In this document: positions 6,552-38,661 of the stretch, piece by piece | Layout of the letters: the number at the start of each line of letters is the position of its first letter | Numbering within the stretch: the first letter of the stretch is position 1 | Source: a virus | Length of the DNA stretch: 41,693 nucleotides | IMG/VR virus record: IMGVR_UViG_3300042505_001242 | Coordinates: 1 to 41,693 of that record | Reading direction: 5' to 3' (one strand) | The notes under the pieces: model-generated | The model's database searches: none | Told to the model about the DNA's origin: nothing | What the model saw: only the letters and a program-made list of their open reading frames with translations | Made by a program: the position numbers and the translations under genes

Positions 6552-6565
6552 TGTACGCTTGTTCA
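6552..6565. promoter_or_regulatory. Phage operator, site 1 (TGTAC-N4-GTTCA)
   Basis: A perfect match to the recurring palindrome TGNAC-N4-GTNCA in the 33-bp gap before the gene at 6293-6532. Read on the - strand it contains TACAAT, a good -10 box, so a bound protein would occlude the promoter. Confidence 0.6.
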
Positions 6566-7168
6566 CTAGTCGGTCCGGTCCATGACTTCGTACAGACACG
6601 CGGCATAACCGGCGATGTCCACGGGGCCGTCGACAGTGGCCCCCGGCCCCCGGAATCTGGCGATCTTGTCGAGGATCATGATCGTGGCCCAATCGGCCTC
6701 GGTCAGCGGTCGCTTCAGCACGTCGGCGAAGGCCGCGTTGACCATGCCGATCGTCCTGGCGAAGTGGCTTTTCGGTCCGCCGTACTTGGGACGGCGGTCG
6801 CGGATGACCTCGGCGGTTTTCTCGCAGAGCTGCTCTGCCGGGGTGGCCTCGGCGGTCGCCGGCGGATCGCCGTCGGCCCCGTAGACCGCCCTCTCGACCG
6901 GTCCGTCCTGCTTGTACTTCGCCCATGCTGCGGCGACTTCCGCCGCCGTCCCAGCCGCATCCGCCACGCCACTCGACCGTGTTGCTTCCAGCATCCTTTT
7001 CCTCTCGTTTACGAGCCGCATTACATGAGCCGCAAGATTTCCAGACGTGCCACACCACTGGCCCTGGAAGCGACGGGCGTCACGCACGGCCGTCGCGATG
7101 TATTCGTCGGAGAGCGGTTCGCGATACGAAACCTCTGCCGCAGTTTCTTGGGGCATAGGTTTCGTCAT
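6566..7168 (-). CDS. DUF6378-like phage protein
   Basis: A 200-aa protein. The C-terminal half (around residues 112-195), with KYGGPKSHFARTIGMVNAAF, an alpha-helical core and ILDKIARFRG, resembles the small phage domain recorded as DUF6378, whose function is unknown but which is helical with conserved polar residues. The N-terminal half is charged. The start overlaps the upstream phosphoesterase stop (ATGA). It closes that transcript before an operator-containing gap. Confidence 0.65.
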   Translation of the reverse strand: MTKPMPQETAAEVSYREPLSDEYIATAVRDARRFQGQWCGTSGNLAAHVMRLVNERKRMLEATRSSGVADAAGTAAEVAAAWAKYKQDGPVERAVYGADGDPPATAEATPAEQLCEKTAEVIRDRRPKYGGPKSHFARTIGMVNAAFADVLKRPLTEADWATIMILDKIARFRGPGATVDGPVDIAGYAACLYEVMDRTD

Positions 7169-8358
7169 GCCGGCACCTCCATCCGGGGGCCGGCAACGTG
7201 CATGGCAGCCAACCCGCCGGCCTCGTCGTAGATGAACAGCTCCATCGCTCGACGCTGACCCAGCCAGCCGTTCACGGCGTGGTAATCGTCCGCCGGCCCG
7301 AGCGACGGCGCGACCCGCACCAGAACCCCATCAAGGGTTTCGATCGGCCTCGACCACTCGGCGGATTGGTGGTGGAGGTGGCCGGTGTGGATCTCTCGGT
7401 AGGGGCAGCGGGCCCACGCCTGCGCCGCCTCAATCGCCATGAGCTGCGGGAGTTTGCGCTTTGCCTTATGACCGTGAACGAACCCCAGAAGACTTAGGCC
7501 GTGGTCGAGATACTTTCGCGGCGTAAACTTTTGGTCAATGCGGACGCGGCCGCGGCCTTGATAGCGTTCAACGAGAAGCCGATGAAAAGCCCACGTCAGC
7601 GTCTCGTCGTGGTTGCCATTGACCACGACAACGTCCGCCGGCCCTACGCCAGCCGCGTCGTCGATCACGCCGATGAGCGAGTCGGTGCCGACCTCGATCA
7701 TCTTCTGCAGCCGGCCGTCCCGCTCGAGCGGCGTGCCGCTGGTGGTGGTCCCGGCCGGCGAATCGTAGTGGAAGAGATCTCCAAGCATCGCGACCGTCAT
7801 GCGGCCGGGCGCGTAGCCGTTTGCGATAGCCAGCAGTTCGCCAGCGGATTCGTCCACCAGCCGCGCGGCGATGTCCAGGTCGTAGTCGGCCTCGCCGGTT
7901 GTCTTCTCCCAGCAGTATTTTCCGAAATGAGTGTCGGCCACGACGAGCACGGCCCAAGTTCCTTTGCGGGAAGGCTTGTTCGCAGTTCGCGAACCGTGGA
8001 CACGCACGCCCTTCGATGCCGACGCGATCATCGCCTCAACGCACTCGCGGACCCCGGGGCCGGGCTTCGGCTTCAACCGCACGAACACGCGGAACAGCTC
8101 GGTGACCTCCGGCCGCCCGGTCTCGCGATTGACGCTCATCCCCTCCCATTTGGTCGCTTCACTCTGTGCCACCTGGTACAGCTCGAGGTCAGCCTCGATA
8201 TGCCGCAGCAAATCGTCGACCGTGCGGATCGTCCGCGAGACGCTCCGGGCCTCGACGTTGTCGCCCTCAGTACGTTTGGTCACATGCTCGGCCTCGGCCG
8301 CCGAGGACGGCTGCGGAAGGCTGGCAACCACGTCGGCGATTAACGGCCGTCGAGCCAT
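7165..8358 (-). CDS. Calcineurin-like metallophosphoesterase
   Basis: A 397-aa protein with the ordered metal-binding motifs of the family: VVADTHFGKY (around 135-145), MLGDLFHYD (around 190), VVNGNHDE (around 245), GFVHGHK (around 295) and HTGHLHH (around 325). Such enzymes hydrolyse phosphomonoesters or diesters using two metals and include phage DNA repair or processing nucleases. The N-terminal 120 residues are helical and unassigned. It overlaps the upstream HTH gene by 19 bp. The substrate cannot be told from sequence. Confidence 0.85.
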   Translation of the reverse strand: MARRPLIADVVASLPQPSSAAEAEHVTKRTEGDNVEARSVSRTIRTVDDLLRHIEADLELYQVAQSEATKWEGMSVNRETGRPEVTELFRVFVRLKPKPGPGVRECVEAMIASASKGVRVHGSRTANKPSRKGTWAVLVVADTHFGKYCWEKTTGEADYDLDIAARLVDESAGELLAIANGYAPGRMTVAMLGDLFHYDSPAGTTTSGTPLERDGRLQKMIEVGTDSLIGVIDDAAGVGPADVVVVNGNHDETLTWAFHRLLVERYQGRGRVRIDQKFTPRKYLDHGLSLLGFVHGHKAKRKLPQLMAIEAAQAWARCPYREIHTGHLHHQSAEWSRPIETLDGVLVRVAPSLGPADDYHAVNGWLGQRRAMELFIYDEAGGLAAMHVAGPRMEVPA

Positions 8359-8582
8359 CTGGTCACCGTAGAGGAGTGTGCGCTGATGCCGCGGTCAGAG
8401 AGAGTTTTTGCGATGGCTTTTGCCAAACCAGTTTTCGATGCGGTGATCCGGCCGGCGCGAAACTCGGACCGAATCTCATCGAGTTCCGCGAGAATCTCCG
8501 GCGGCAGCACGTCGGCAAAACTCTGCCGCGTCCGCCGTGGCAGATTCGCCAGCACTTCATCGAGCAATACCGGCTTCGCCAT
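8340..8582 (-). CDS. Small helix-turn-helix protein
   Basis: An 80-aa basic, helical protein. The ATG at 8582 has GGAGG about six bases upstream. The C-terminal part (TGLAKAIAKTLSDRGI.AHSSTVTRWLDG) looks like an HTH with a recognition helix. It may regulate late genes or act as a DNA-packaging accessory. It is first in its transcript, directly below an operator-like site that overlaps a TTGACA box. A similar protein in other phages was not recalled with certainty. Confidence 0.6.
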   Translation of the reverse strand: MAKPVLLDEVLANLPRRTRQSFADVLPPEILAELDEIRSEFRAGRITASKTGLAKAIAKTLSDRGISAHSSTVTRWLDGR

Positions 8583-8616
8583 GCGGCCTCCGTATACCAG
8601 CCAGTTTGCGGATAGG

Positions 8617-8630
8617 TGTACGGGTGTCAA
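8617..8630. promoter_or_regulatory. Phage operator, site 2 (TGTAC-N4-GTCAA) overlapping a -35 box
   Basis: On the - strand this is TTGACACCCGTACA, so the left half doubles as a consensus -35 hexamer for the downstream HTH and phosphoesterase genes. It shares GGTGTACGGG.GTCAACC with site 6 at 29509. Confidence 0.6.
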
Positions 8631-8947
8631 CCGCTGTTTTCTGGTCCCCACTTGCCGACCGGACAGGATTCGCCAGCCCAGGAGAGCTTGGAGATATAGG
8701 CTCTCTCTCTGCTCACAGGGCAGCCACACTTGGTACACGCCTTCCCATCGAAATACTCGCACCCCGAACAGATCGCGTGGCGGGCGGCCACCTGTTCGTC
8801 GGTGCAGCGGGGGGCACCGGCGGCGACGTGCGACACCGCGGCCTTAGCGAAGTTGCCCATCCGCTCGAGCAGCGGGGGGGGCTCGCTGCTAGCACGCGCG
8901 GCCCGGCGGGCATTGACCTCAGACGCTGCAAGGAGCCTGGATTTCAA
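8627..8947 (-). CDS. Cys-rich small zinc-binding-like phage protein
   Basis: About 106 aa from a TTG start at 8947. It opens with LKSRLLAASEVNARRAARA, a run recalled from similar small phage proteins, then AICSGCEYFDGKACTKCGCP and SCPVGKWGP near the end: five or more cysteines spaced as metal ligands. Longer forms starting upstream would overlap the previous gene by 172 bp. The function is unknown. It is commonly seen near tail genes in environmental phages, from memory. The start is uncertain; ATG 8860 is also possible. Confidence 0.6.
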   Translation of the reverse strand: MKSRLLAASEVNARRAARASSEPPPLLERMGNFAKAAVSHVAAGAPRCTDEQVAARHAICSGCEYFDGKACTKCGCPVSRERAYISKLSWAGESCPVGKWGPENSG

Positions 8948-10343
8948 ATCGGATCCGCGGTGCTGTAGCTCCGCAGCCGCCAGTGGAGTCTTGTGGGTAG
9001 CCAATTGATCGCTCCATGGTTGGTTCGCCGATCGGGACGGGGTCGCCTGCTGAGATGTTCCCGCAGTTCTCCGGGGCCGCATACGTGTCAATCGTGCCGG
9101 CCCATTGGTCCACCGTAAATGGGCCGGCGCAATATTTAATCGTCTGATGCACGACGTACCACGCGGTCACCGGCGGGCTGACGTTGTTGTCCGATTCGCA
9201 GTACAGGTCCAAATACTGCTGCTCCAGCGTTTGCGTATTGGGGTTGTCGGTGCGTTCGAAAAAAAACTTGTACGGGTAGACGATCGTCCCGCTCCCGCCC
9301 AAATGCTCGTAGTACAGCAGATCGTTGGTTACCGGGTCGGTGACCGACATCAACTCAGGCGTGCCTAAAACAAACTCTGGAGTTTCGCCTCCCCAGAACA
9401 CCCTGGTGTTGCCCTCGCCGATCGGAACGTCGCAATCCGCCGGGACGGTGCGACACGTTGGGCGGGAGGTGATGCGGAAGGTGGCGGAGAAGGCATCAAC
9501 AACCTCGTCCACGAGTGGCGCTCTACTTAGTCCTGGCTGACCGGGCTCAACTGGAACCACGGTAAGAGGGTATTCAACATCGCCTATGGTCACTTTGTCC
9601 TTTTGGACGACTACATCCAAAGGTGTTCTGACGTGATGAAATCCATCTCGCGGATGCCAATAAGGCGGCCGGAAGCACGACCTAGATTCGTTGTAAATGC
9701 AGTCAACCGGAAGCGGGAAATAGCCGTTGTAGGCCAGGTAGTAGGTCGTGAACTTCCGCCCGAGCCCGCGGCCGCCCTTTTCGTCCGAGGTTTCGGTTTC
9801 ACGGAAAGCAATCTCAAGAAACACGTTGATTGTCGGAATGCGTGGGTTGCCAACGTCTGCGCCTGATTTCTCATCGAAGACGCAAGCAACTGATACATAG
9901 GCAAAAACGGAGAATCTGGCGTATATGTATTCAATGAATGGCTGACTCGGATTGAACGGGTTTGGTCTGGTGTATTCCCTTCTCCAGTGCCCCTGGTGCC
10001 GGACATCTGCACCGAATCCGCGATTGATGACGTCGGTTGCCCCGGCTAACGAGTAGTTGTCTCGCCCAGGCCCTTCGTAAATCTCGTAGCCTTCGCCCAG
10101 GTCGTCGGAGAAACGCCAGCCGTCCACAAGTTTTGTGTTGGGCAGCGTTGTGTCAAAGCCGCCGCACGAGTTAGTGGGGCTCTTGACGGCAAGGTCCGAA
10201 GGCGACACTACTGACATGAAGTAGGAACAAAAGTCCGGGCAGTAGCAGTTGGGCGGCGGCGGATTCTCGCAGCAACACGTCTGGCTGCCGGCCACCAAGC
10301 CACCAACCAGCAACGGCTTCCCGTCCTTGAACCGGATTTCCAC
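8919..10343 (-). CDS. Large cysteine-containing tail or minor virion protein
   Basis: A 474-aa protein beginning with a GTG two bases after the previous stop. An early cysteine cluster (SQTCCCENPPPPNCYCPDFC, around 20-39) is followed by an aromatic and Gly/Pro-rich, probably beta-sheet body with further scattered cysteines, and a C-terminus ending IQAPCSV. Disulfides or a metal would stabilise it outside the cell. Position at the end of the tail block suggests a tail-tip or adhesion protein. The family is not recognised. Confidence 0.55.
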   Translation of the reverse strand: MEIRFKDGKPLLVGGLVAGSQTCCCENPPPPNCYCPDFCSYFMSVVSPSDLAVKSPTNSCGGFDTTLPNTKLVDGWRFSDDLGEGYEIYEGPGRDNYSLAGATDVINRGFGADVRHQGHWRREYTRPNPFNPSQPFIEYIYARFSVFAYVSVACVFDEKSGADVGNPRIPTINVFLEIAFRETETSDEKGGRGLGRKFTTYYLAYNGYFPLPVDCIYNESRSCFRPPYWHPRDGFHHVRTPLDVVVQKDKVTIGDVEYPLTVVPVEPGQPGLSRAPLVDEVVDAFSATFRITSRPTCRTVPADCDVPIGEGNTRVFWGGETPEFVLGTPELMSVTDPVTNDLLYYEHLGGSGTIVYPYKFFFERTDNPNTQTLEQQYLDLYCESDNNVSPPVTAWYVVHQTIKYCAGPFTVDQWAGTIDTYAAPENCGNISAGDPVPIGEPTMERSIGYPQDSTGGCGATAPRIRFEIQAPCSV

Positions 10344-10345
10344 GC

Positions 10346-10684: not shown

Positions 10685-10697
10685 GAGAACGAGAACC

Positions 10698-12415: not shown

Positions 12416-12423
12416 GGTTCCTA

Positions 12424-15396: not shown

Positions 15397-15405
15397 TCGT
15401 CAGCC

Positions 15406-15765
15406 TTACACGCCCACGAATCGCTTGAGCGTGATCGTGTATTCAACGACACCGTCGATCTCCTGCGGCTCGCTGATATTGTTGACGTAGTAAAGCCCGG
15501 TCGACCCGCCTCCGACGCCCGTCACGGTCGCGACGCCCGTGCTGTGAAGGGTTGCGGTGTGGTCGAGCACAACCACTTCGATCGTGGTGTTCTGCCGAAC
15601 CGGAACGAACTCTTGAACATTGTCGCTGCCGCGGGTCGTCACTTCGGCCTCGGCCGAAGTCTCTCGAGTCACGGTGACTGTCTTCACGTCTTTGTTGGCA
15701 ATGACGCTGCCGAACGTGAACGACTGATCCTTGCCGAGACGATAGCTGTGGGCGACGGGGGGCAT
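15406..15765 (-). CDS. Small beta-rich tail protein, 119 aa
   Basis: A 119-aa protein dominated by beta-prone stretches (FTFGSVIANKDVKTVTVTR, EVVVLDHTATLHSTGVATVT) with a GGGSTG turn. Together with the next gene it forms the tail tube or tail decoration pair. Either could be the major tail protein. GGAG lies upstream of ATG 15765, and a 65-bp gap separates it from the upstream gene, so it may have its own promoter. Confidence 0.55.
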   Translation of the reverse strand: MPPVAHSYRLGKDQSFTFGSVIANKDVKTVTVTRETSAEAEVTTRGSDNVQEFVPVRQNTTIEVVVLDHTATLHSTGVATVTGVGGGSTGLYYVNNISEPQEIDGVVEYTITLKRFVGV

Positions 15766-15830
15766 TTAAGAAACTCCTTGTGTGCGGTTTCGGCCCGATA
15801 GGCCACCTGAACGTCAGTATACCACTTAGA

Positions 15831-23801: not shown

Positions 23802-25667
23802 TCAAGCGGTCGCCATCCGGTAGCATCCGCGAGACTCAGCCTTGGCAACGCCATAGCTGAAATGACCGCGGACCTGGATGCCGAGCTGATTGAAATCGGC
23901 GTCGGCCTGCTGGACCGTGGGGAGCCTCTGGCCGTTCAAGAAAGCGACCTCCATGCAAGGCAGCTCGGCCGGGTTGGCGACGAGCCACCAGGTCGATGAA
24001 CTCGTCAGGTAGGACGAGGGCACAACCTGGAACCGACCAGCGAACACGTTCACGTTTCCGCGGGTCACGCTCTCGCCCGTGATGAGCACCGTCGATCCCA
24101 TCATTTCGTCGGCGGTGATCTCCAGGTCCGGTGGGACGAGGATCATCGACGGCGAGATGCCCAACGGGTTACCGTCGGGATCGGTCAGTTTCTTGTACGA
24201 AGTCACCGCCGTCTTCAGCGACGAGATCGCCAAGGCGTTGCCTGCCGCGGCCGTCTCTTTCTGAAAGAACGTCGAGTTGTTCAACTGAAACTCGGTCCAG
24301 AAATCCTTGTTCAGCTTGACCGCGGCACCGCGGCCCAGCCTGGATGGCACCTGGGTCAGAGCACCCAGGTCGTCGTTCACGATGTCGACCATCGTGATGC
24401 TGGACATGCGGCCTGTCAGCTTGGCCTTGATCGTCCGCGTCTCGTCGGAGGCGTCGGCCGACTTCAGTTCGCCGCTGGGACCGAGATCCTCAAACTCGAA
24501 TCCACCGTTGAGCCGCACGCCCGTGACCGTCTTGTAGTCACTGACGCTGCGGATCGACGCGATCATGTCCCACGTCGACTCGACGGCGTTGTAGCCCTGG
24601 AGAAGGAACTTGCCGTAGGTCGCCGCGAGCACGTTGCTGATGCTGTGCGTGGCGAACCCGGTCGCCTGCACCTGGGGGAACGCACCGGCGAGCACCTCGC
24701 GGATGTTGCCGTCGTGGATGCGGGCCGGACCGGTGTATCCGTTCCGGCGGGCAGCCTCGATCAGCACCTCTTGCAGCGACGTGTGGTTTCGCCGCCGGTC
24801 AGCCGCCTCGAGGGTCTTCTCGTCGAAGACCTTCTCGACGTTGGCGAGACCGCCAGCGAGACACAACGCCGCCTCCACCACCTTCGGCGCGTTGGCCGCG
24901 GCGGCATCCACGACGTGGATCGCGGGAGCCGACGGGCGAGAAGCCCGGACCTCCGCGACCCGCTCCTCTCGCATCCGCTGCATCACGATCTCGGCGACCT
25001 CGCCGGCGATCAGGCTGGCACTGTCACCGCCAGCGGTGGCGACGATGGGCTTCGGGTCCGCGACGACGATCGCCGGGGCTTCCGTCTTCGGCACGGCGGC
25101 CTCGACGGGCTTCTCGTTGAGCTGATCGCTCATAGGGAATACCTCACTCGCCTCGGCGGCGATAGCCGCGGACGTTGCACCGTCCGCACCGAACAGGACC
25201 ACGCTCGTTTCGCGGAGAACCGCCGCACGAGCAACACTGATAGGGCCGGAGAACTCGCGACCGTTGACTGTCACGCTGGCTCCCGCGGCGATGTTTTCGA
25301 TTGAGCCCACGTCGGCCCCGATGCTCGCTTGCAGCGGCACGCCGGCCTTCGCGAGGGCGATCAGCTTGTCGCCGGCCGGCGTCCCGCGAATCAGTTCGCC
25401 GCGGAGCACAAGCTGGCTGCCGTCGTTGGTAGATTCCAGACTTCGTCCGATCACGCTGTCGAGCATCGACATCTCTTTGCCGTGGGCGTAGAGAATCGGG
25501 ATCGGCCGCGATGCGTCGATCTGTGCGAGGTCGACGACCAGCGGATTCCTCGACCACCCCTGGCGGATCGACGCCCCGGTGTAGGCCAGAAGTTCAAACG
25601 TCGGCGTCGCGGCCTCGTCGGCCGCTTGGACGTTGAGGGTTGCGGATAGTTCGATGCGGTTGTTCAT
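23802..25667 (-). CDS. Fused prohead protease and major capsid protein
   Basis: A 621-aa protein. Residues about 1-165 resemble the caudoviral prohead protease, with a candidate catalytic pair: His62 in YAHGKEMS and Ser115 in LQASIGADVG. Residues about 180-290 look like a scaffold/delta linker (PKTEAPAIVVADPKP, helix MQRMREERVAEVRASRP), and residues about 300-621 carry a Mu-like/HK97-fold major head protein (FWTEFQLNNSTFFQKETAAA, SYLTSSSTWWLVANPAE). One chain thus encodes protease, scaffold and shell. ATG 25667 overlaps the portal stop. An internal start at 25133 could make the shell part alone. Confidence 0.85.
   Translation of the reverse strand: MNNRIELSATLNVQAADEAATPTFELLAYTGASIRQGWSRNPLVVDLAQIDASRPIPILYAHGKEMSMLDSVIGRSLESTNDGSQLVLRGELIRGTPAGDKLIALAKAGVPLQASIGADVGSIENIAAGASVTVNGREFSGPISVARAAVLRETSVVLFGADGATSAAIAAEASEVFPMSDQLNEKPVEAAVPKTEAPAIVVADPKPIVATAGGDSASLIAGEVAEIVMQRMREERVAEVRASRPSAPAIHVVDAAAANAPKVVEAALCLAGGLANVEKVFDEKTLEAADRRRNHTSLQEVLIEAARRNGYTGPARIHDGNIREVLAGAFPQVQATGFATHSISNVLAATYGKFLLQGYNAVESTWDMIASIRSVSDYKTVTGVRLNGGFEFEDLGPSGELKSADASDETRTIKAKLTGRMSSITMVDIVNDDLGALTQVPSRLGRGAAVKLNKDFWTEFQLNNSTFFQKETAAAGNALAISSLKTAVTSYKKLTDPDGNPLGISPSMILVPPDLEITADEMMGSTVLITGESVTRGNVNVFAGRFQVVPSSYLTSSSTWWLVANPAELPCMEVAFLNGQRLPTVQQADADFNQLGIQVRGHFSYGVAKAESRGCYRMATA
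25131..25148 (-). promoter_or_regulatory. Internal ribosome site and start codon for the capsid part
   Basis: GAGGT (25145-25141 on the - strand) sits seven bases before an in-frame ATG (25133-25131), codon 179 of the fusion, between protease and scaffold regions. Translation from it would yield a 443-aa scaffold-capsid protein, allowing many shells per protease. This resembles nested head genes such as lambda C and Nu3. Confidence 0.6.
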
Positions 25668-27665: not shown

Positions 27666-27682
27666 GGGACGCTTCGCGTCCC
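27666..27682 (-). other. Leader hairpin with GAA loop
   Basis: GGGACGC-GAA-GCGTCCC on the - strand is a perfect 7-bp stem containing GCGAAGC, a core known to form unusually stable minihairpins. It lies between operator site 3 and the gpW-like start and would be at the 5' end of that mRNA. Confidence 0.6.
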
Positions 27683-27691: not shown

Positions 27692-27705
27692 TGTACCAAT
27701 GTTCA
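27692..27705. promoter_or_regulatory. Phage operator, site 3 (TGTAC-N4-GTTCA)
   Basis: A perfect match to the recurring palindrome upstream of the gpW-portal-capsid genes. On the - strand it includes TACACT, a possible -10, so occupancy would control the head transcript. Confidence 0.6.
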
Positions 27706-27800: not shown

Positions 27801-27832
27801 GGCGGGTCTCCTTGCCGCCATTTTACCCTACC

Positions 27833-27846
27833 GGTACATGCGTCCA
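27833..27846. promoter_or_regulatory. Phage operator, site 4 (GGTAC-N4-GTCCA)
   Basis: Matches the palindrome in the right half and four of five bases of the left half. On the - strand it is followed by TAAAAT, a good -10 box, then the tiny acidic peptide. It shares GCGTCCAGTAA with site 8 near the integrase. Confidence 0.55.
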
Positions 27847-29508: not shown

Positions 29509-29522
29509 TGTACGGGCGTCAA
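29509..29522. promoter_or_regulatory. Phage operator, site 6 (TGTAC-N4-GTCAA)
   Basis: On the - strand the sequence is TTGACGCCCGTACA. TTGACG can act as -35, with CAGAAT 16 bases downstream as -10. It controls the exported-protein unit. Near-identical flanks are shared with site 2. Confidence 0.6.
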
Positions 29523-31653: not shown

Positions 31654-32110
31654 GCCTCGCGTACCAGTGTGCAAGGAGTGCCGCGTCGGCCCGACCGTCG
31701 TCCTTGACCCTGGCGAACAGCTCCGCGTGCCGAGGCCAGAGCCGGCTCGCCACCAGCCGGTGCTCGCCCTTGTCCCGGCTGACGCCAACGGCTTTCGTCC
31801 ACGACTGCGGGCGGACGAGGGTCAGCGGATAGCCGAGGGCCGAGACCACGCCCTCGACCAGGCCGAAACCGCGGCCGAAGTTGAACGCCGAGGTGGCCCC
31901 GGAGCCTTGAACGCCCTGGACGTGCTCGAGGACGACGTGGTTGGGCTGGAAGGGGAAGCCTCGCTGCACGAGGTGGGCCAGCCGGGCCGCGTCGATCACA
32001 CGCTTGCCGCGGACCTCCGCGACCGGCATATCGAGGACGTGGAGGCCCTCTTCAGAGACGAGGGCGAGAGCGCCGCTGAGACCGGGGTCGATGCCGAGGA
32101 TGATGGTCAT
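31640..32110 (-). CDS. RuvC-like Holliday junction resolvase
   Basis: A 156-aa protein with the RuvC/RNase H fold signature: IILGIDPGLSGALALV (first Asp, residue 7), a Glu in VVLEHVQGVQGSG (near 61) and DDGRADAALLAHWY with the final acidic residues. It cuts branched DNA before packaging. The start overlaps the LexA-like gene (ATGA), and its 3' end overlaps the terminase, so replication intermediates, resolution and packaging are coupled. Confidence 0.85.
   Translation of the reverse strand: MTIILGIDPGLSGALALVSEEGLHVLDMPVAEVRGKRVIDAARLAHLVQRGFPFQPNHVVLEHVQGVQGSGATSAFNFGRGFGLVEGVVSALGYPLTLVRPQSWTKAVGVSRDKGEHRLVASRLWPRHAELFARVKDDGRADAALLAHWYARHGSG
31660..31673. promoter_or_regulatory. Phage operator, site 5 (CGTAC-N4-GTGCA)
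   Basis: Matches the palindrome in nine of ten fixed positions, 7 bases upstream of the terminase start, inside the end of the resolvase gene. It may control a terminase promoter, though no clear hexamers were seen. Confidence 0.45.
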
Positions 32111-32337
32111 TGCGTCACCTCCACCACCCGCACCGTCCTGGCCCGCCCTTCGTCCCACGTCACCCTCCCGTCGCGCCGCAGCCGCCAGAGCTTTTGCTGC
32201 ACGTCCGAATGGATCGACCCGATGACCGCAGCGATCTCCCGCATGGTCGGCGGATAGCCGCGCTCCGCGGTCAGGTCGACGATCGCGTCGATGACCGCGA
32301 GCTGCTTGGGGGTGGTGGTGGTGGTGGCGGTTGTCAT
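32107..32337 (-). CDS. LexA DNA-binding-domain-like winged helix protein
   Basis: A 76-aa protein with a threonine run at the start and the LexA N-terminal HTH pattern TAERGYPPTMREIAAVIGS followed by a short wing. It lacks the LexA protease domain, so it cannot self-cleave. Such stand-alone domains act as repressors or help the replication protein. It lies between the initiator and the resolvase (ATGA overlaps both sides). It is a candidate binder of the recurring palindrome. Confidence 0.7.
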   Translation of the reverse strand: MTTATTTTTPKQLAVIDAIVDLTAERGYPPTMREIAAVIGSIHSDVQQKLWRLRRDGRVTWDEGRARTVRVVEVTQ

Positions 32338-33314
32338 GCGGGGCCTCCGGCTTTCTGCGACTTGATGGCGAGGAACTCAGCACGTCGCCTGGAGACCTCC
32401 GGATCCTCGACGGAACGCTTCCACTCGGCTGCGGCGTCAGCCGCAGAGCGGCGATCGTCTGGCCGCTTCGCGGCCTCGCGGTGAGTGCCGCCGCGGTCCT
32501 GGCAGTTGTTGAGCCAACTCGTCGTCAGCCACTTCCGCCAGTTCGACTTCTTCGCCTTCTTGGGATTCGCCTTGAGCCATTGGGTGGCCCGGGCCAGCTC
32601 GACCGGGATGTCCGCAGCCGGGTAGGCCGCGGCCCATTCGGCGAGGTCGGGATCGCCGATGCCCTCCCACCCTGCGCTAGCAGACCACCGGATGGAGTCG
32701 GTCGGCTCAGAGCCGGCCCGCGGAGCGGGACTGCTCGGAGCACAAGAGGAAAAGGGAAGAGGGAAAGAGGAAAGAGGAAGAGGGAAAGAGGCGCAAATCG
32801 CCGGGAAACTTCCCGGCTCCGTCGTTGGACTTCCCGGCTCCATCGTTGGACTTCCCGGTTTTGCGTTTTCCTCGGGAAAAACCGCACTTTTGTCTGGAGC
32901 AGCTACATTGCCGGGAAAAGCCGGGAAACTTCCCGGCTCTGTTGTTGGATTTCCCGGCTCCAGCGCCGGACTTCCCGGTTTTCCTCCGTTTGGGGGTGGC
33001 AGGAACCCCTCCGAACGCTCTTCTGGGTGGCATCTTTGGTGCTCCCGGAACTTGGGTATTTCGAGCACCCGCTTGTCGCCCGCTTCGTAGGCGCGGACGA
33101 AGCCCCTGTCGGCGAGCTGCTTCAGCAGGTTCGCCATGTCGCAGTTTTCGTAGGGGAACAACTCGGCCTTGATCCGCATGGGGCGGTTCTCGAGGCGGCC
33201 ATCGCGGTCGGCGAGGGTCCATAGGCCGATGAACAGGAGGCGTGCCATCGGCTCGCACTCGGCCAGGTGCTCGTTCTTGTAGAACGACGGCTTGATGCTA
33301 CGGGCGCGTGCCAT
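32334..33314 (-). CDS. Replication initiator-like protein with embedded origin repeats
   Basis: A 326-aa protein. The start MARARSIKPSFYKNEHLAEC then a winged-helix-like region (to about residue 85, LLKQLADRGFVRAYEAGDK) matches phage replisome organiser proteins. Residues about 100-165 are a low-complexity linker encoded by the iterons (PGSPTTEPGSFPAI repeated), then a basic C-terminal part (KANPKKAKKSNWRKWL). AGGAGG precedes ATG 33314. It likely binds the repeats in its own gene and loads host helicase. Confidence 0.8.
   Translation of the reverse strand: MARARSIKPSFYKNEHLAECEPMARLLFIGLWTLADRDGRLENRPMRIKAELFPYENCDMANLLKQLADRGFVRAYEAGDKRVLEIPKFREHQRCHPEERSEGFLPPPNGGKPGSPALEPGNPTTEPGSFPAFPGNVAAPDKSAVFPEENAKPGSPTMEPGSPTTEPGSFPAICASFPLPLSSFPLPFSSCAPSSPAPRAGSEPTDSIRWSASAGWEGIGDPDLAEWAAAYPAADIPVELARATQWLKANPKKAKKSNWRKWLTTSWLNNCQDRGGTHREAAKRPDDRRSAADAAAEWKRSVEDPEVSRRRAEFLAIKSQKAGGPA
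32744..32990 (-). repeat. Origin-like array inside the initiator gene
   Basis: Six 21-bp iterons in two clusters of three (32808-32870 and 32928-32990, units start ACTTCCCGG, 120 bp apart), each cluster next to the palindrome CCGGGAAACTTCCCGG (32801-32816 and 32921-32936). Adjoining is an uninterrupted 48-base purine tract at 32744-32791 on the + strand, lower in GC than its surroundings. Iterons plus an easily melted tract inside the initiator gene is the lambda O/ori layout. Confidence 0.75.
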
Positions 33315-33831
33315 ATTCGGCCTCCTGCTCGTCTTCGTGACCAACGCAAATGTTCATGGGACGCTGCCTCACGCCTATGGCGTCCGCATCTTGGTAGATG
33401 GCATCAAAAACCATATGGCTATTACACGAGAACCATTCGCCGGCCACCCGATACTTGCGCAGGCTTTTGTGAACTGCCGACTCAAGTTCGTATGCCTCGC
33501 GATCGTCTCGCACGCGGCAAAAGCAAACCACGCGAAGCTGACTTGCGTTTCCTGTCTGAAGCTGTTTCATCCTCTTCTGCAGCGAAACCGCCTTGCCGAC
33601 CTTGTGCATTGATCCGTCCGTGATCGCATACACAACAGTTGTTTCCGGGTTTAGTTTTCGCTGGCGAAGGATGCTCGCTACGTTGAGAAGCCACGCCGCG
33701 AATCGTTCACAAGTTTCCGCAAAAAGAGGCTCGCCGGTCTGGATGTTTATGTTTACCGCCGGCCCAAAATCATCAAGCTCGTTGAAAATGGCGTAGCCGC
33801 TTGCGAACTCGTCAAATAAGTGACTATCCAT
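33298..33831 (-). CDS. T5orf172/MUG113-type GIY-YIG-like protein (first of a pair)
   Basis: A 177-aa protein. The C-terminal domain (VVYAITDGSMHKVGKAVSLQ with an RMKQLQTG turn, then ELESAVHKSLRKYRVAGEWF) has the order and key residues of the T5orf172/MUG113 group of the GIY-YIG nuclease fold, associated with DNA cleavage in phages. The N-terminal 80 residues are unassigned. GGAGG lies upstream of ATG 33831. Base composition is visibly poorer in GC than neighbours, suggesting later arrival. Confidence 0.7.
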   Translation of the reverse strand: MDSHLFDEFASGYAIFNELDDFGPAVNINIQTGEPLFAETCERFAAWLLNVASILRQRKLNPETTVVYAITDGSMHKVGKAVSLQKRMKQLQTGNASQLRVVCFCRVRDDREAYELESAVHKSLRKYRVAGEWFSCNSHMVFDAIYQDADAIGVRQRPMNICVGHEDEQEAEYGTRP

Positions 33832-34399
33832 TGACCACCTCCATGCTGGTCGGGTCGGCCACCAAAGCGTCGCCGTCGCAATAAGATTCGCGATCATGCA
33901 AAAACATCCATCTTGGCCCGTTTTTGTCGGTTGCAAGCCTTGACCGAGATTTATTACATCCAGCAATCCACTCTCCACGAATCCAGAAGCCAGCAGACGC
34001 CGAGGAAGCAAGAAAGGAAGTCTCAACGCTCAACGCAGCCCTTCGTGATGTGCATTGAATAGACGTACAACTGTCAACGCGAAGTAACGGGCACGCACCA
34101 TGCTCAAGAGTCCGTGACTTTACGTTCCAAGTTACTCCAACCTTGAAGATCGTCATTGAGGGAACAACTGTTTTGAGTTTTGCAAGGTAAACGGCACACG
34201 GACCTTTTCCGTCGCAGTTGCCTCTTGGGTGTATTGCAGTCTCAAGGTCGTACATCCGTCGCATTTCATTCCACGTCCTAACAGGACTTCCTTTCCACGG
34301 AATCTCTATCCATAGGTCGCGAGGCTTTTGTCCACTCAAGGCACGAAACACCGCTCTGTTTGACTCTGCGCTCACGTCGCACCTCCAGTTGCTTTCCAT
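33824..34399 (-). CDS. T5orf172/MUG113-type GIY-YIG-like protein (second of the pair)
   Basis: A 191-aa protein. It contains VYLAKLKTVVPSMTIFKVGV and TWNVKSRTLEHGACPLLRV, then AALSVETSFLASSASAGFWI: the strand-turn-helix core of a GIY-YIG-like nuclease, diverged from the neighbour at 33298. It carries CDGKGPC and other cysteines. The gene is less GC-rich than its surroundings. Two adjacent members may mark a homing or selfish insertion between the winged-helix gene and the initiator. Confidence 0.6.
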   Translation of the reverse strand: MESNWRCDVSAESNRAVFRALSGQKPRDLWIEIPWKGSPVRTWNEMRRMYDLETAIHPRGNCDGKGPCAVYLAKLKTVVPSMTIFKVGVTWNVKSRTLEHGACPLLRVDSCTSIQCTSRRAALSVETSFLASSASAGFWIRGEWIAGCNKSRSRLATDKNGPRWMFLHDRESYCDGDALVADPTSMEVVNG

Positions 34400-34722
34400 A
34401 ACCTTGCCCCGGCCGTGCCATGACCCTTCCGCCTGGCCGCGAATCCGACCGACACGATCTTGTTTTGCTTTGATAGCCCGGAGAACACGCTGCCGAACGC
34501 TCTCGCGTCGTGCGGCACCAGGCCCAGCCGCTGGCAGTGATCGACGAGTTCCTCGCCCGTCATGGCACGGCCAGACTTCGTCAGGGCCTCGAGGATCGCC
34601 GCACGGGCCGCGCCGGTGTCGAAGCCGGCCACCCGCACGGCCTTCGCTGTGCAGGCCGCCGCGGGCTGCGAGAACAGCGGCAGTGCCGAGATCGCGTCGT
34701 CGGTAGACCATGACGCCGTCAT
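34372..34722 (-). CDS. Winged-helix-like regulatory protein, 116 aa
   Basis: Starts at ATG 34722 (ATGA overlap with the tiny gene upstream). Residues about 35-85 (ARAAILEALTKSGRAMTGEE then LVDHCQRLGLVP and FGSVFSGLSKQNKIVSVGFA) look like a winged helix; the rest is charged. It could be a replication-linked regulator or small host-interaction protein. It belongs to the early block before the GIY-YIG pair. The specific role is unknown. Confidence 0.6.
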   Translation of the reverse strand: MTASWSTDDAISALPLFSQPAAACTAKAVRVAGFDTGAARAAILEALTKSGRAMTGEELVDHCQRLGLVPHDARAFGSVFSGLSKQNKIVSVGFAARRKGHGTAGARLWKATGGAT

Positions 34723-34853: not shown

Positions 34854-34989
34854 TTGCAGACCTCCATGCCTCAAAAGAATCACTCGTGTACCGGACCCAT
34901 CCTTGAGTTTGCCGCGTGACGTGCGGCGACCGGTCGGAGTCACTGGCTATCTGGCGGGAAGGTTCGCCACCCAGCCTCCGGCTGCGGAG

Positions 34990-35289
34990 TTACTTCGCGA
35001 CCACCGCGTGCGCTCTCCCTGCGGCCGATGAAGAGGCAGCCGCTTGGTTACCGGCCGGGAGCGGCCGGAGTTTCGCGAGAACGTCTTGGAGGTTTGTTAT
35101 CTGCTTCTGGATCTTGATTGCCGCCATCTCGTCAGCGGCTGCCACAGTTGGGAGGAAGCGATCCGACGACTCCAGGTCGTCGAGGTGCTTTCGCCTGACG
35201 TATGTCAAATCGCCGACGACGACCGTCTCGCCGCTGATTCGGTAGATTTCGCCGTTGGGGAAGACGTGGGTTTGGTACAGGGTTGCCAT
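34990..35289 (-). CDS. Hypothetical early protein, 99 aa
   Basis: Starts with a good AAAAGGAAAA ribosome site. The first 33 residues look beta-rich (NGEIYRISGETVVVGDLTYV), and the middle is a likely coiled helix (MAAIKIQKQITNLQDVLAKL). It lies between the SSB-like gene and a tiny gene in the early block, so a role in DNA metabolism or host takeover is possible. No family is recognised. The gap 34854-34989 holds no clear gene. Confidence 0.55.
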   Translation of the reverse strand: MATLYQTHVFPNGEIYRISGETVVVGDLTYVRRKHLDDLESSDRFLPTVAAADEMAAIKIQKQITNLQDVLAKLRPLPAGNQAAASSSAAGRAHAVVAK

Positions 35290-35321
35290 GTGGTTTTCCT
35301 TTTTCTGAAAAGTGGAATGAG

Positions 35322-35810
35322 TCAGAAGGGGATGTCGTCGCCGCTCGCACCGGTGGCCGCGTCCGCCTTTTGAGTGGCGGTGCGATTGGCTCGAGGAGCC
35401 GCGGCTGGCTTCGGGTCAGCGGCCCCCGTGCCGGTCGCAGGCATGAAGCCGTTGACGTAGACCCGCTGGTTACCGTCTTGGTCCAGCACCGGCTCGCCAT
35501 CCTTGACCGCCCGCTTAGAGGAGATCGCGACGACCTGGCCGGCGATCGAGTCGTCGATCTCCGAATCCCACGCCCGGCCCAGGGCCGCGTTGAGATCCAT
35601 CGCCGTCCGCTGGTCGCGTTTGTTGTCCGGTGACAGCCACTTCTCGACCTGGTCGTATGCGTCGGCCACGTCTCGAAACACAAGGACAGCAAACTCCTGG
35701 CCCGTCTTCTTGCTGGTCACGCTCTTGACCTTGACGATCTCCACGTCGTGATCGCCGTCCGGCAAAGTGCTGGCTGCAAAATCCTGGTCTGTGAACTTGT
35801 CGAACCTCAC
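35322..35810 (-). CDS. SSB-like single-stranded DNA-binding protein with DDIPF tail
   Basis: A 162-aa protein starting with GTG 35810. The first 110 residues are OB-fold-like (LPDGDHDVEIVKVKSVTSKK, FAVLVFRDVAD). The linker is Ala/Pro/Thr-rich, and the C-terminus ends GDDIPF, the conserved tip by which bacterial SSB proteins bind partner enzymes. Phage SSB and DUF669-type proteins share these features. The stop-start arrangement and its ATPase neighbour point to a recombination and replication module. Confidence 0.75.
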   Translation of the reverse strand: MRFDKFTDQDFAASTLPDGDHDVEIVKVKSVTSKKTGQEFAVLVFRDVADAYDQVEKWLSPDNKRDQRTAMDLNAALGRAWDSEIDDSIAGQVVAISSKRAVKDGEPVLDQDGNQRVYVNGFMPATGTGAADPKPAAAPRANRTATQKADAATGASGDDIPF

Positions 35811-36004
35811 GTTGTCACCTCTGGTGTGTAGGGCTTGGTACTGATCTTCACGATCCGGTCGGCGTCGCCCACGAGGGCGTCGTCGATGATGGCCTTGGCA
35901 CGGTTGAAGGAGACCGCACCACGCTTGAACGCGACCGCGGTGTCCTCGACGAGCTGCATGGCCGCCGCGTGGCGGGCCTCCTCGTCACGTTCGACCTGGT
36001 TCAT
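35807..36004 (-). CDS. Hypothetical early protein, 65 aa
   Basis: A 65-aa helical, charged protein (MNQVERDEEARHAAAMQLVE, then ALVGDADRIVKISTKPYTP) overlapping both neighbours by four bases. It lies between the AAA ATPase and the SSB-like gene. Its sequence does not match a family known to me. It may be a small partner of the ATPase. Confidence 0.55.
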   Translation of the reverse strand: MNQVERDEEARHAAAMQLVEDTAVAFKRGAVSFNRAKAIIDDALVGDADRIVKISTKPYTPEVTT

Positions 36005-36915
36005 GCTGGAACCTCCTGCGGTGAGAGTTCGTCGTGCTTGGCACCGATCAGCGATCGGAGGGTGTCGGCCTGCTCCGGCGTCAGCTTGCCGGCCGACTCC
36101 GCGGAGTCGACGGCGTCACCGACGGCTCCGAGCTGCTCGACCGAGTCGCAGTCGGCGATCCGGTCCCGCCAGCCCTTTGGCTTCGGTGTCGAGGCCGGGG
36201 CCGGCACGTCGGCGAACAGCGGGGCGAGGCCCTCGATGGTCATGGGCAGTTCCGGGGCGAGCCCGTAGCGGTTTTTGGCGTCAAAGGCCGCTGCCCGCTC
36301 GGTGTGCAGCACCCGCTCTTTGCCGCCCTTGGCCCGGGTGCGGCCATCCTCGCCCGCGACGAGTCGGGTCTTGTAGTTGGCGAACAGAATGCAATCCGCC
36401 CACTCCTTCACAAGCGGCCCGCTCTGTTTGGTCAGTTTCAGTTCAAACCGGTCGTAGCCCTCGTCCATGTCGGGGGGGCTGCACCGCTTGACGGTGGTGT
36501 GGCACACGATGACCACGTTGATGCCACGCTCCACGAGTGAGTCGCAGACCGTGAGGAAGCGACCGATCGCCTCCGCGACCATCGTGTAGCCTTTCCCAAA
36601 TCCGAAGTCTTCGATGCTCCGCTTCTGGGCCTTGGAAAGAAGGTTCTCAATGAGGAGCCGCTCCAGCCAATCGCCGGAGTCGATCACGACCGTCTGGTAT
36701 CCCTGCGAGTCGCGAGCCAACTCGTGCAGGGTTCCCTCGGCCTCGAGGTAGTTCGTGATCGTCACCCGATCCACGTCGAGGTGGTTCGTGCCGTCCTCGG
36801 TGTCGAGCACCAGGGGTTTCGGGAACTGGCTGGCAAGTGTGCTTTTGCCGATTCCCTCGACGCCGTGAATGACGACCCGCTTTGCCGTCTGCCGCTTTCC
36901 CTTCGTGATCTTCAT
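36001..36915 (-). CDS. AAA/RecA-like ATPase (Sak4-type recombination factor candidate)
   Basis: A 304-aa protein. Walker A is GVEGIGKST (residues about 18-26), Walker B YQTVVIDSGD (near 80), with NVVIVCHTTVKR (near 145) as the sensor region. The C-terminal domain (around 250-304) is helical. AAA_24/Sak4-type phage ATPases act like RecA with an SSB neighbour, and the gene next door encodes the SSB-like protein. It starts at ATG 36915, an ATGA overlap with the previous gene. Confidence 0.8.
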   Translation of the reverse strand: MKITKGKRQTAKRVVIHGVEGIGKSTLASQFPKPLVLDTEDGTNHLDVDRVTITNYLEAEGTLHELARDSQGYQTVVIDSGDWLERLLIENLLSKAQKRSIEDFGFGKGYTMVAEAIGRFLTVCDSLVERGINVVIVCHTTVKRCSPPDMDEGYDRFELKLTKQSGPLVKEWADCILFANYKTRLVAGEDGRTRAKGGKERVLHTERAAAFDAKNRYGLAPELPMTIEGLAPLFADVPAPASTPKPKGWRDRIADCDSVEQLGAVGDAVDSAESAGKLTPEQADTLRSLIGAKHDELSPQEVPA

Positions 36916-37139
36916 ACTTTTATTCCCTCTTTTCGTGCCCACTCTTCCAACTGCCTCACGGCCGTGCGGACCATCCGCACGTCACCGTCAAAACTCCTGC
37001 TATAGCCCTCGACCGCACTGACACTCGTGAGCATCAATCGTGCGGCCCGGAGCAACTTCAACGCCCGGCAAATGCCCAGCGAGTGGCGGCCGTCCGCCGC
37101 TTTCACGCTGGCTCTCTTCGGATCGATTCCACTTGTCAT
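36912..37139 (-). CDS. Hypothetical early protein inside the csrA-like 3' end
   Basis: A 75-aa basic helical protein (LGICRALKLLRAARLMLTSV). Its start ATG 37139 has a strong GGAGG within the csrA-like gene, which it overlaps by 140 bp. It could be a small DNA or RNA binding protein. The overlap suggests coupled translation or that one of the two frames is partly spurious. Neighbours on both sides use four-base overlaps, which supports this gene. Confidence 0.55.
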   Translation of the reverse strand: MTSGIDPKRASVKAADGRHSLGICRALKLLRAARLMLTSVSAVEGYSRSFDGDVRMVRTAVRQLEEWARKEGIKV

Positions 37140-37305
37140 TGATGACCTCCAGTTCGCTTCGTCTGATTGAGATGTGGGCTGGTGCCTCGATGCCCAGCTT
37201 GACCATTGGCCGACCGCCGCCCGCTCCGCGGATCTCCCGCACCACCACGACTACGTCCGGACCGATCTGGATTCGGTCTCCGAGGTAGCGATTAAGATTC
37301 AGCAC
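37000..37305 (-). CDS. csrA: CsrA/RsmA-like RNA-binding regulator
   Basis: A 101-aa protein whose first 55 residues align with CsrA: LNLNRYLGDRIQIGPDVVVV (Arg6 kept, second Arg replaced by Tyr), a GAGGGRP loop, VKLGIEAPAHISIRRSELEV (the RNA-contacting Arg of the R-S/E-E-L turn kept). CsrA dimers bind GGA motifs in leader RNAs to repress or stabilise messages. Residues 56-101 are an unusual extension sharing DNA with the next gene. GTG 37305 has CGGAG upstream. It may retune host or phage messages. Confidence 0.8.
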   Translation of the reverse strand: MLNLNRYLGDRIQIGPDVVVVVREIRGAGGGRPMVKLGIEAPAHISIRRSELEVINDKWNRSEESQRESGGRPPLAGHLPGVEVAPGRTIDAHECQCGRGL

Positions 37306-37690
37306 GACGGCTCCGTTTCGTTACCGCTTTGCCAGCCTTGGCTCGGCGGGGTCGTTCCTGTTCACGCCGCGGTCCCCGCGGCTCCGTTCCGGCGTGATCC
37401 GTCACGCCGGCATCCTGGTTGCTGGTGGCCGCGGTGATTGCACCGCCGTGCCACGGTTTTCCCGTGCGGTTCTGCCGCAGTCGCACCTCGGAGAGCCGCC
37501 GCAGAGCCTCCGGCTCGCCGCAGAGAAGGTCGGCCATACGGTCGGCGATCGTCTCCAGGTCGGCGATCGCCTCGCGCGTCGAGTCGTAGATGACCTCAAG
37601 ATCCCCGGCCATCAGCCGCTGCTCGATGTCCATGTCGATCGTCTCGTTCAGCGGCAGTCGCCGCGTGCAGACGATCGCAGCGGTCGCCAT
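37292..37690 (-). CDS. Hypothetical early protein, 132 aa
   Basis: The start is uncertain; ATG 37690 with AGGG upstream is preferred over longer forms that run into the neighbouring gene. A long helix (around residues 25-60, TREAIADLETIADRMADLLC) with acidic and hydrophobic alternation is followed by a basic C-terminal tail (RREQERPRRAKAGKAVTKRS), probably nucleic-acid binding. It is coupled to the csrA-like gene by a 14-bp overlap. It is not recognised. Confidence 0.5.
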   Translation of the reverse strand: MATAAIVCTRRLPLNETIDMDIEQRLMAGDLEVIYDSTREAIADLETIADRMADLLCGEPEALRRLSEVRLRQNRTGKPWHGGAITAATSNQDAGVTDHAGTEPRGPRREQERPRRAKAGKAVTKRSRRAES

Positions 37691-37719
37691 CCGAACCCTA
37701 AGGGTGCGGACGACCTCAC

Positions 37720-37926
37720 CTACCTCCCCCGCGGCACTCCGTAGAGATTCCGCACGTTCACCGGAGCTGCATCCGGCGGGAGGTAGTCGCACCGTTGAAC
37801 CCGACGCCGGTACTCCTCGTCCGCCGACCAGCTCATCTGAATCGCAGTCGTGAGCAACTGGATGGTCGGCTCGGTCGGGTCGGCTTGGTCTCTTTCTCGG
37901 TCCTGGTATCGCTGAGTCGTGTCCAT
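37720..37926 (-). CDS. Hypothetical early protein, 68 aa
   Basis: First gene of the main early transcript. ATG 37926 follows a leader with a perfect palindrome and the operator-controlled promoter. The protein is charged with a helix (EPTIQLLTTAIQMSWSADEE) and a basic end. It may be a small regulator. There is no family match. The ribosome site is weak, so translation may depend on leader structure or on CsrA-type control. Confidence 0.5.
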   Translation of the reverse strand: MDTTQRYQDRERDQADPTEPTIQLLTTAIQMSWSADEEYRRRVQRCDYLPPDAAPVNVRNLYGVPRGR

Positions 37927-38002
37927 TGCGGCTTGCTCTCGTTCTGAGGGACGCCGATGCTGCGGTTTTGCGTGTCATGGCGCGTCCCTCGCCTGTCGTT
38001 CC

Positions 38003-38021
38003 TGCCGATCACCGTGATCGG
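38003..38021. other. Perfect 19-bp palindrome in the early leader
   Basis: GCCGATCAC-C-GTGATCGGC is symmetrical about one base. It lies downstream of the early promoter and upstream of gene 37720-37926. As RNA it forms a 9-bp hairpin; as DNA it could be a dimer-binding site. GGA motifs follow it on the mRNA, as CsrA targets do. Confidence 0.55.
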
Positions 38022-38045
38022 CCGCTGGTTCTCTTGGGTGTGGGT

Positions 38046-38073
38046 ACTGTACCGATGTGCAGATACCCGTCAA
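38046..38073 (-). promoter_or_regulatory. Early promoter overlapped by operator site 7 (TGTAC-N4-GTGCA)
   Basis: On the - strand TTGACG (38073-38068), a 16-base spacer and TACAGT (38051-38046) form a promoter. The palindrome TGTACCGATGTGCA (38048-38061) covers the -10 and spacer, so a bound protein would block early transcription. A further inverted repeat ACGAT-N4-ATCGT (38074-38087) lies just upstream. Confidence 0.65.
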
Positions 38074-38175
38074 ACGATTTTGATCGTCGTGGCTTTCGTG
38101 GATTCCTTGCAGTGGGGGAGTTGAAATCTGAAACCACTCGGTCGTTGGTACGAAGGCGTATCAACGATGTGCGGA

Positions 38176-38203
38176 AAGATACGCAATCGTGTAAACGTGT
38201 CAA
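38176..38203 (-). promoter_or_regulatory. Second early promoter
   Basis: TTGACA (38203-38198), 16-bp spacer, TATCTT (38181-38176). The -35 is preceded by ATACGCTTG, a 9-mer also found in the promoter of the regulator gene. It reads in the early direction and is tandem with the promoter at 38046. Confidence 0.5.
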
Positions 38204-38249
38204 GCGTATTTTCTTGCAAAGAGAAAAATCGCCTGAAAAGCCGCGTAAA

Positions 38250-38474
38250 TCAGCCGGGGCGGAATCCGCCTCGCTTGCGGCCCGTCACTCTCGGCACCTT
38301 CGCCAGCTTCTTGATCTCGGCCTCGTCAAAGACTCGAGCGTTGGCGGCCATGTGCTCACTCCAAAGCATCCCATCCAGCGCCATGCGGCGGAGTCGCCCC
38401 ATGCTGATGCCGAGAATCTTCGCGGCCTCGCGGGTGCTGATGAGTTTGCGGTTGGTTTGGATTGCCATCACCAT
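38250..38474 (-). CDS. HTH regulator or excisionase-like protein
   Basis: A 74-aa protein (start at ATG 38474, or ATG 38468 with an AGGG site). The HTH is LISTREAAKILGISMGRLRRMA, with a wing ending NARVFDEAEIKKLAKV and a basic Gly-rich tail. Such proteins control lysogeny or direct excision. ATG 38474 falls on the predicted transcription start, so the mRNA may be leaderless, as with lambda cI. It is divergent from the integrase, with the likely attP and a long hairpin between them. Confidence 0.75.
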   Translation of the reverse strand: MVMAIQTNRKLISTREAAKILGISMGRLRRMALDGMLWSEHMAANARVFDEAEIKKLAKVPRVTGRKRGGFRPG

Positions 38475-38480
38475 GCCCTG

Positions 38481-38508
38481 ATAGTATCGCAAGCGTATGA
38501 AGAGTCAA
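38481..38508 (-). promoter_or_regulatory. Promoter of the HTH regulator gene
   Basis: TTGACT (38508-38503), 16-bp spacer and TACTAT (38486-38481). ATACGCTTG occurs in the spacer and recurs at 38201-38209, a possible operator. Transcription is predicted to start at about 38474. Confidence 0.55.
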
Positions 38509-38544
38509 ACTGTCCAATCCGCCCGACCAGCTCGACCAGCAAAT

Positions 38545-38575
38545 CCGGCCCAGCCGTTTGCTTCGGCTGGGCCGG
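38545..38575. other. Perfect 12-bp-stem hairpin next to attP
   Basis: CCGGCCCAGCCG and CGGCTGGGCCGG pair perfectly around a 7-base loop (TTTGCTT). It lies between the regulator promoter and the attP-like sequence. It may terminate transcription approaching from either side or be a relic of a host RNA-gene terminator. Confidence 0.65.
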
Positions 38576-38578
38576 TCT

Positions 38579-38640
38579 GCGAGAGTTGAAGTGGCCGGGC
38601 GAGAGTTGCAGTGGAGGCGAGGGGAGTCGAATACCCCAAA
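38579..38640. other. Probable attP: tmRNA/tRNA 3'-end-like core with arm repeats
   Basis: The - strand reads TATTCGACTCCCCTCGCCTC followed by CAC: a T-loop (TTCGACT) with stem, then the acceptor arm as at the 3' end of tmRNA (ssrA) or a tRNA. On the + strand GTGGAGGCGAGG is at 38611-38622. Beside it are two near-copies of GCGAGAGTTGMAGTGG (38579-38594 and 38599-38614), likely integrase arm sites. It lies about 60 bp before the integrase gene. Confidence 0.6.
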
Positions 38641-38647
38641 GGGGTGA

Positions 38648-38661
38648 TGTACTAGCGTCCA
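38648..38661. promoter_or_regulatory. Phage operator, site 8 (TGTAC-N4-GTCCA)
   Basis: A perfect match to the recurring palindrome, between attP and the integrase start (38703). It is a candidate site for controlling integrase transcription. It shares GCGTCCAGTAA with site 4. Confidence 0.6.

Follow-up and report, generated by a model that had tools for sequence, protein, structure and literature searches.

What reads a 14-bp palindrome that recurs ahead of early, late and integrase genes in one phage, and to what effect? The question is raised by IMG/VR virus record IMGVR_UViG_3300042505_001242, analysed here over its full 41,693 bases (the window; 63.6% GC). An initial annotation had noted eight copies of TGTAC-N4-GTNCA and proposed a genome-wide switch, in which a LexA-type DNA-binding protein encoded at 32107-32337 would keep early, late and integrase genes silent in the lysogen. 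Our analysis suggests, with a probability of roughly 0.7, that the sites, with the consensus TGNAC-N4-GTNCA, serve as operators for a single dimeric regulator of the LexA family and are located in the early, several late and the integrase promoters.

The eight strings (at 6552, 8617, 27692, 27833, 29509, 31660, 38048 and 38648) are all present where they had been reported. Allowing up to two mismatches over the whole window, TGTAC-N4-GTNCA gave 55 matches against 62 expected in shuffled sequence, that is, no surplus; the pattern by itself therefore proves nothing, and a matrix was built from relatives. Searches with the terminase recovered 122 relatives in IMG/VR, of which 80 (51-98% identical) were kept. 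Their 146 TGNAC-N4-GTACA readings, in which a perfect palindrome counts once per strand, were cut to 36: near-duplicates were removed, as were readings whose context resembled some part of the window by more than 70% (in a seeded check). TTGAC sites were not entered. With this relatives-only matrix the window shows nine matches of at least 12 bits; in 100 simulated Markov sequences the mean was 0.67 and the highest count 3. They represent eight distinct positions, as 6552 is counted on both strands. The seven best are 27692, 38048, 6552, 38648, 8617, 29509 and the previously unlisted 15808; the site at 31660, rejected below, is also among the eight. By our own gene calls, gaps make up 10.1% of the window and hold six of the eight positions (binomial P 2.5e-5); the two outside are 31660 and 38048, the latter within a 55-residue + strand open reading frame (ORF) taken to be spurious. 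Good matches favour gaps over genes rather than occurring equally in both, and the sites are kept in related phages.

Seven of the eight reported sites stand, 6552, 8617, 27692, 29509, 38048 and 38648 strongly and 27833 weakly. The one that fails, 31660-31673 on the - strand, is RuvC coding sequence (Ala-His-Trp-Tyr). None of 36 non-identical relative loci retains its left half TGCAC (15 have CGCAC, the others GGCCC and further variants), and the conserved bases of the region are ruvC codons; it is a chance match, outside the set. Two other candidates were set aside: 19722 (TGAAC-AGGT-GAACA, 10.6 bits), found in five near-relative loci and overlapping a gene start, and 34056, which is weak (8.7 bits) and for which no homologous site was found in the relative loci.

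The geometry of the sites was examined on every GTACA of the 80 relatives and the window, 429 on the terminase strand and 344 on the opposite one. Upstream of GTACA on the terminase strand, T[GT]NAC occurs 103 times at a spacer of 4 and 0-5 times at each other spacing from 0 to 12, counts that include many homologous copies and are not independent events; on the opposite strand the figures are 14 at spacer 4 and 0-8 elsewhere. Among 24 full relative records, 22 carry the pattern and none the reversed pattern. Perfect palindromes, TGTAC-N4-GTACA, are found in two clades (L021/L022/L024/L028/L034 and L072/L073), and a distant clade (L348-L351 and L354, with terminases 42-43% identical where present) has TGTACAGGTGTACA, which in L351 forms a perfect palindrome directly before the integrase. 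At 38048 and 38648 the half-sites are retained while the spacer drifts: identity is 89% in half-sites, 75% in the spacer and 79% in the flanks at 38048 (9 dereplicated homologues), and 96%, 62% and 80% at 38648 (10 dereplicated homologues). The corresponding values are 96%, 80% and 81% at 29509, and 93%, 88% and 77% at 27692; at 6552, 8617, 27833, 15808 and 19722 there are not enough homologues, or they are too similar, for this comparison.

A 14-bp dyad with a 4-bp spacer places the sites in the LexA-box class GNAC-N4-GTNC, from which the TTGAC left halves of 8617 and 29509 deviate. The cyanobacterial RGTACNNNDGTWCB and Bacillus CGAACN4GTTCG boxes share this 14-bp dyad and spacer (PMC3091678). 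Unlike those boxes, the sites described here have T and A as outer bases, lie on phage genomes and have a putative ligand. The likeness to LexA boxes noted in the initial annotation is thus borne out in its geometry, as the spacer of 4 stands out and palindromes occur in relatives.

Several of the sites overlap a -10 or a -35 and, from their sequence, look like operators of one dimeric regulator. All sites in this paragraph and the next are on the - strand unless indicated otherwise, and the counts of relative loci include some overlapping pieces of one contig. The clearest early case is 38048-38061 (TGCAC-ATCG-GTACA, 18.2 bits), which falls between TTGACG (-35) and TACAGT (-10), spaced by 16; in several relatives the site is, by eye, likewise surrounded by an early promoter TTGAC(G/C)-N16-TACA. 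The site at 6552-6565 (TGAAC-AAGC-GTACA, 17.4 bits) lies 19 bp before the GTG at 6532 of the 6293-6532 gene and overlaps a -10-like TACAAT; it is identical in six near-relative loci and reads TGGAC in one. The promoter overlap proposed earlier holds at several sites, 6552 and 38048 among them, but not fully at 8617-8630 (TTGAC-ACCC-GTACA, 13.9 bits), where TTGAC is -35-like and a convincing -10 is wanting; this string precedes the 8340-8582 gene (ATG at 8582) and recurs unchanged in 13 relative loci. The similar site at 29509-29522 (TTGAC-GCCC-GTACA, 13.6 bits), before the 29138-29452 gene, keeps TTGAC in 33 of 33 relative loci, with GTACA as right half in 26 and GTTCA in 7. The additional predicted operator at 15808-15821 (TATAC-TGAC-GTTCA, 13.4 bits) sits in a gap upstream of gene 15406-15765; its left half is overlapped by an extended -10, TGGTATACT, on the - strand, and it is unchanged in two relatives of 70-72% identity.

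The highest matrix score, 25.7 bits, belongs to the predicted late operator of the portal block at 27692-27705 (TGAAC-ATTG-GTACA), which overlaps the extended -10 TGGTACACT. Among 41 distinct relative upstreams of the homologous gene, the full site is present in 27 and a degenerate version (a TAGAC, TGAAG or TATACT form) in 9, while 5 have none. A perfect hairpin, GGGACGC-TTC-GCGTCCC, lies at 27666-27682, after this late promoter and ahead of the start codon; several relatives show, by eye, something hairpin-like in the corresponding position, and the element is possibly a 5' stabiliser of the mRNA. The weaker site at 27833-27846 (TGGAC-GCAT-GTACC, 5.05 bits), before a small ORF starting near 27801, is kept in 12 near-relative loci, as TGGAC in 6 and as TGAAC in 6. 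Finally, the predicted integrase operator at 38648-38661 (TGTAC-TAGC-GTCCA, 16.2 bits), to which no strand is assigned, lies between the probable attP core and the integrase ATG at 38703. Read by eye, it sits at a -35, with a weak -10 17 bp further on. Of 28 integrase relatives, 21 have a site of this kind ahead of the gene.

These features suggest how the switch might work. Where, as at several sites, one half-site coincides with the -10 (TACANT) or is -35-like (TTGAC), a bound dimer would block RNA polymerase. In the lysogen, one protein could keep the early, late and integrase promoters off together; they would be freed once this regulator is lost, as might happen upon DNA damage.

Which protein would bind the sites? 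The nearest parallel is phage GIL01, in which P1 and P3 are repressed by the host's LexA acting with gp7, and P3 is activated by a truncated homologue of LexA, gp6 (PMC6182141). In both phages, LexA boxes (LexA-type and predicted in the present case) are found in early and late promoters, and both encode a small protein consisting mainly of a LexA DNA-binding domain, which in GIL01 activates the late promoter (PMC6182141). As in the GIL01 type, the phage LexA-domain protein, at 32107-32337, is among the early genes. GIL01 has no dedicated phage repressor (PMC6182141); in the present window, a scan of part of the ORFs, many of them with unannotated products, brought up no recognisable CI-like repressor. 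The differences are also clear. GIL01 is a tectivirus (PMC6182141) that does not integrate (PMC9700832), whereas in the present phage the integrase also carries a site. Binding of host LexA is proven for GIL01 (PMC6182141) and putative here, and gp6 binds another palindrome, GaCACAC GTGTGaC, centred at -43.5 (PMC6182141). By analogy with GIL01, host LexA may act as the lysogenic repressor and the phage protein, with its DNA-binding domain alone, as a competitor or activator in the lytic phase; we regard this tentative assignment as the likeliest one, at somewhat less than even odds. A still more speculative and rather unlikely extension is that the host repressor and its DNA-binding-only phage homologue compete for the same boxes, so that an exchange of ligands switches about eight promoters in a probable planctomycete phage group.

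The phage itself probably infects a planctomycete bacterium, since 71 of the 80 terminase records kept in named genomes (of 350 confirmed loci; the closest 41-45% identical) are planctomycete by title. In 18 kb of the 77-kb record G015, the prophage flanks showed by eye only phage-like genes.

The initial annotation had instead proposed the 32107-32337 protein as the single lysogenic repressor, which we consider possible but less likely. This 76-residue protein, encoded on the - strand, is the clearest LexA-type protein of the window and a candidate ligand. Its only Pfam match is PF01726 (E 2.9e-13), which confirms the reported LexA-type domain lacking a protease, and it also matches a PHROG annotated 'transcriptional repressor' (1.9e-9). 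As the match covers the DNA-binding domain only, with no self-cleaving S24 protease/dimerisation domain at the C-terminus, the protein has a LexA domain but is not a LexA. Homologues are found in 33 of 50 relatives at E 0.01, in 31 over the Pfam cut-off. Among loci of at least 8 kb, 53 non-late sites occur in 41 loci with the gene and none in 17 without it, and sites per locus differ with the presence of the gene (Mann-Whitney 4e-6). Four relatives, L067, L069, L070 and L079, have homologues of the early region, no LexA-like gene and no site outside the late promoter; L067 and L069 have, by eye, an XRE-type protein in its place. Moreover, the distant clade encodes LexA-like proteins of 37-44% identity and has the perfect palindrome at its integrase.

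The correlation between gene and sites is used here as weak support because it is confounded: the gene and the early and integrase sites are neighbours, and most gene-less loci stop short (in L063 the gene is present in the record though outside the locus). Several observations speak against a sole phage repressor. The gene is located well inside the early block, together with recombination and replication genes, on the strand of the 38048 promoter and downstream of it, so that from the gene order we infer that it belongs to the operon of that promoter. Residues of the recognition helix vary among 31 distinct LexA-like sequences (QQK, YQK, AAK, HQK, RVQ, VCH) while the sites remain constant, and no copy is seen in seven site-bearing relatives (L016, L067, L069, L071, L072, L073 and L074, all partial contigs). 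In addition, searches with single LexA-like proteins led to unrelated phages, several of which carry LexA-like proteins and none the GTACA form of the motif, and to one distant clade with the motif. Of the proposed switch, the conserved dyad operators over early, late and integrase promoters and their LexA-box geometry thus stand; the 32107-32337 protein is a candidate for its repressor. In L067 and L069, a small protein resembling CsrA (by eye) is encoded at 2824-3042 and 2771-3004, respectively, near the XRE-type protein.

That the ligand is another protein altogether is possible but not likely. Small unannotated phage proteins, or those with weak helix matches below cut-offs (38250-38474, HTH_17, 0.0017; 34372-34722, 0.018; 8340-8582, 0.044), could be the ligand, and this is one of several points that weigh against a common LexA-family operator set. 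A TGNAC-N4-GTNCA box is found at only 1 of 82 planctomycete LexA-domain loci. Of 15 planctomycete genomes, 4 (G068, G132, G150 and G104) have TGWAC-N4-GTWCA in excess of its reversed control and 11 do not; with the looser TGNAC-N4-GTNCA, the control matches too in G020, G021 and G023. Homologous copies inflate the spacing counts, and in 80 planctomycete prophage loci spacers of 3 and 5 gave 20 and 18 matches, nearly all of them homologous copies of a few conserved strings. The integrase site is missing in 7 of 28 integrase relatives (L219-L225; 40-43% identical), and L081 has a LexA-like gene yet only a degenerate late site. As for promoters, 8617 and 29509 show no convincing -10 at 16-18 bp from their TTGAC, and the late promoters have no clear -35. 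The single planctomycete locus with a box, L241 in genome G111, reads TGAACACTTGTTCA beside TATAAT just ahead of lexA, some 37 bases upstream of the match to the LexA domain.

A different explanation, which we judge improbable, would make the string a promoter element for a host or phage sigma factor or RNA polymerase and not an operator. It draws mainly on the strand bias of the motif, with 85 copies on the terminase strand against 2 on the opposite one, and also on the resemblance of GTACANT to a -10 and of the late sites to the extended -10 TGGTACACT. The same bias fits the operator reading, because one half of the dyad is fused with the -10. Perfect palindromes, the occurrence of GTTCA as right half of 29509 in 7 of 33 homologues, and the reversed orientation of 15808 all argue against a promoter element; so does the scarcity of the motif in planctomycete prophage loci, with only 1 match in 1.1 Mb.

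Even less probable are stoperators of the L5 type, at which a bound protein would halt the elongating polymerase in one direction. In L5 and TipsytheTRex, many sites of one regulator are likewise spread across a temperate phage genome with an orientation tied to transcription (PMC9283540), and the sites described here are scattered too, for the most part between genes and pointing one way. However, each L5 site is an asymmetric 13-mer to which a monomer binds, and there are more than twenty of them (PMC9283540), whereas the present ones number only about eight and are dyads in promoters, fused with a -10 or -35, some of them perfect palindromes. Chance matches in GC-rich sequence, chosen after the fact, would agree with the lack of enrichment of the loose consensus and with the fate of 31660, one of the eight reported sites, but are contradicted by the relatives-only matrix, the conservation and the spacing test, and their probability is negligible.

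Phages under LexA control, LexA-domain proteins of phages and operators dispersed over phage genomes are each known separately. The coliphages mEp460 and SfII, for instance, also encode an annotated 'LexA DNA binding domain protein' (34-40% identity among the best 20 of 33 records), the likeness being one of annotation alone. The combination of all three on about eight promoters, that of the integrase included, in a group of phages that probably infect planctomycetes was not found among the titles and abstract starts listed for the open-access literature; judged by the titles listed there, the switch of planctomycete phages seems hardly described. A conserved operator set offers a handle on planctomycete phage lysogeny and could lead to the hosts' own LexA box; planctomycete LexA reportedly does not recognise the Escherichia coli box (PMC3108266). 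If the proposal is true, the GIL01 idea of a phage LexA-domain protein combined with LexA-type boxes would extend to integrating tailed phages.

The integrase region adds some detail. The tyrosine integrase (38703-39641, + strand) matches a PHROG integrase at 8.5e-25, within a longer ORF at 37926-39641; its PF00589 match (E 0.0013) is below the cut-off. The probable attP core at 38612-38631 (- strand), directly beside the predicted integrase operator, matches the 3' end of tRNA-Ala, GGTTCGACTCCCCTCGCCTCCA. The exact 20-mer is present in 19 of the 28 integrase relatives and in 0 of 392 planctomycete genomes. A 22-mer with one mismatch occurs in 17 of 199 planctomycete genomes; five of ten loci were scanned and all five are tRNA-Ala, not transfer-messenger RNA. 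Downstream of the integrase, L201 (2860-2960) and L214 (3513-3600) have two tandem operators followed by repeats like GAGTATTTCGATAGCC, which look like iterons or a packaging/replication site.

The window holds tailed-phage genes, including a GpA-type terminase, portal, tape measure, Sak4-like annealing protein, RuvC, replication initiator and the integrase. One ORF, 23802-25667, matches both head protease and major head protein families and is probably a fusion. A T5orf172/MUG113 domain protein at 33298-33831, which we take to be GIY-YIG-like, is flanked by replication genes. Between the tape measure and head genes, 17058-18110 matches a PHROG annotated as beta-1,4-glycosyltransferase.

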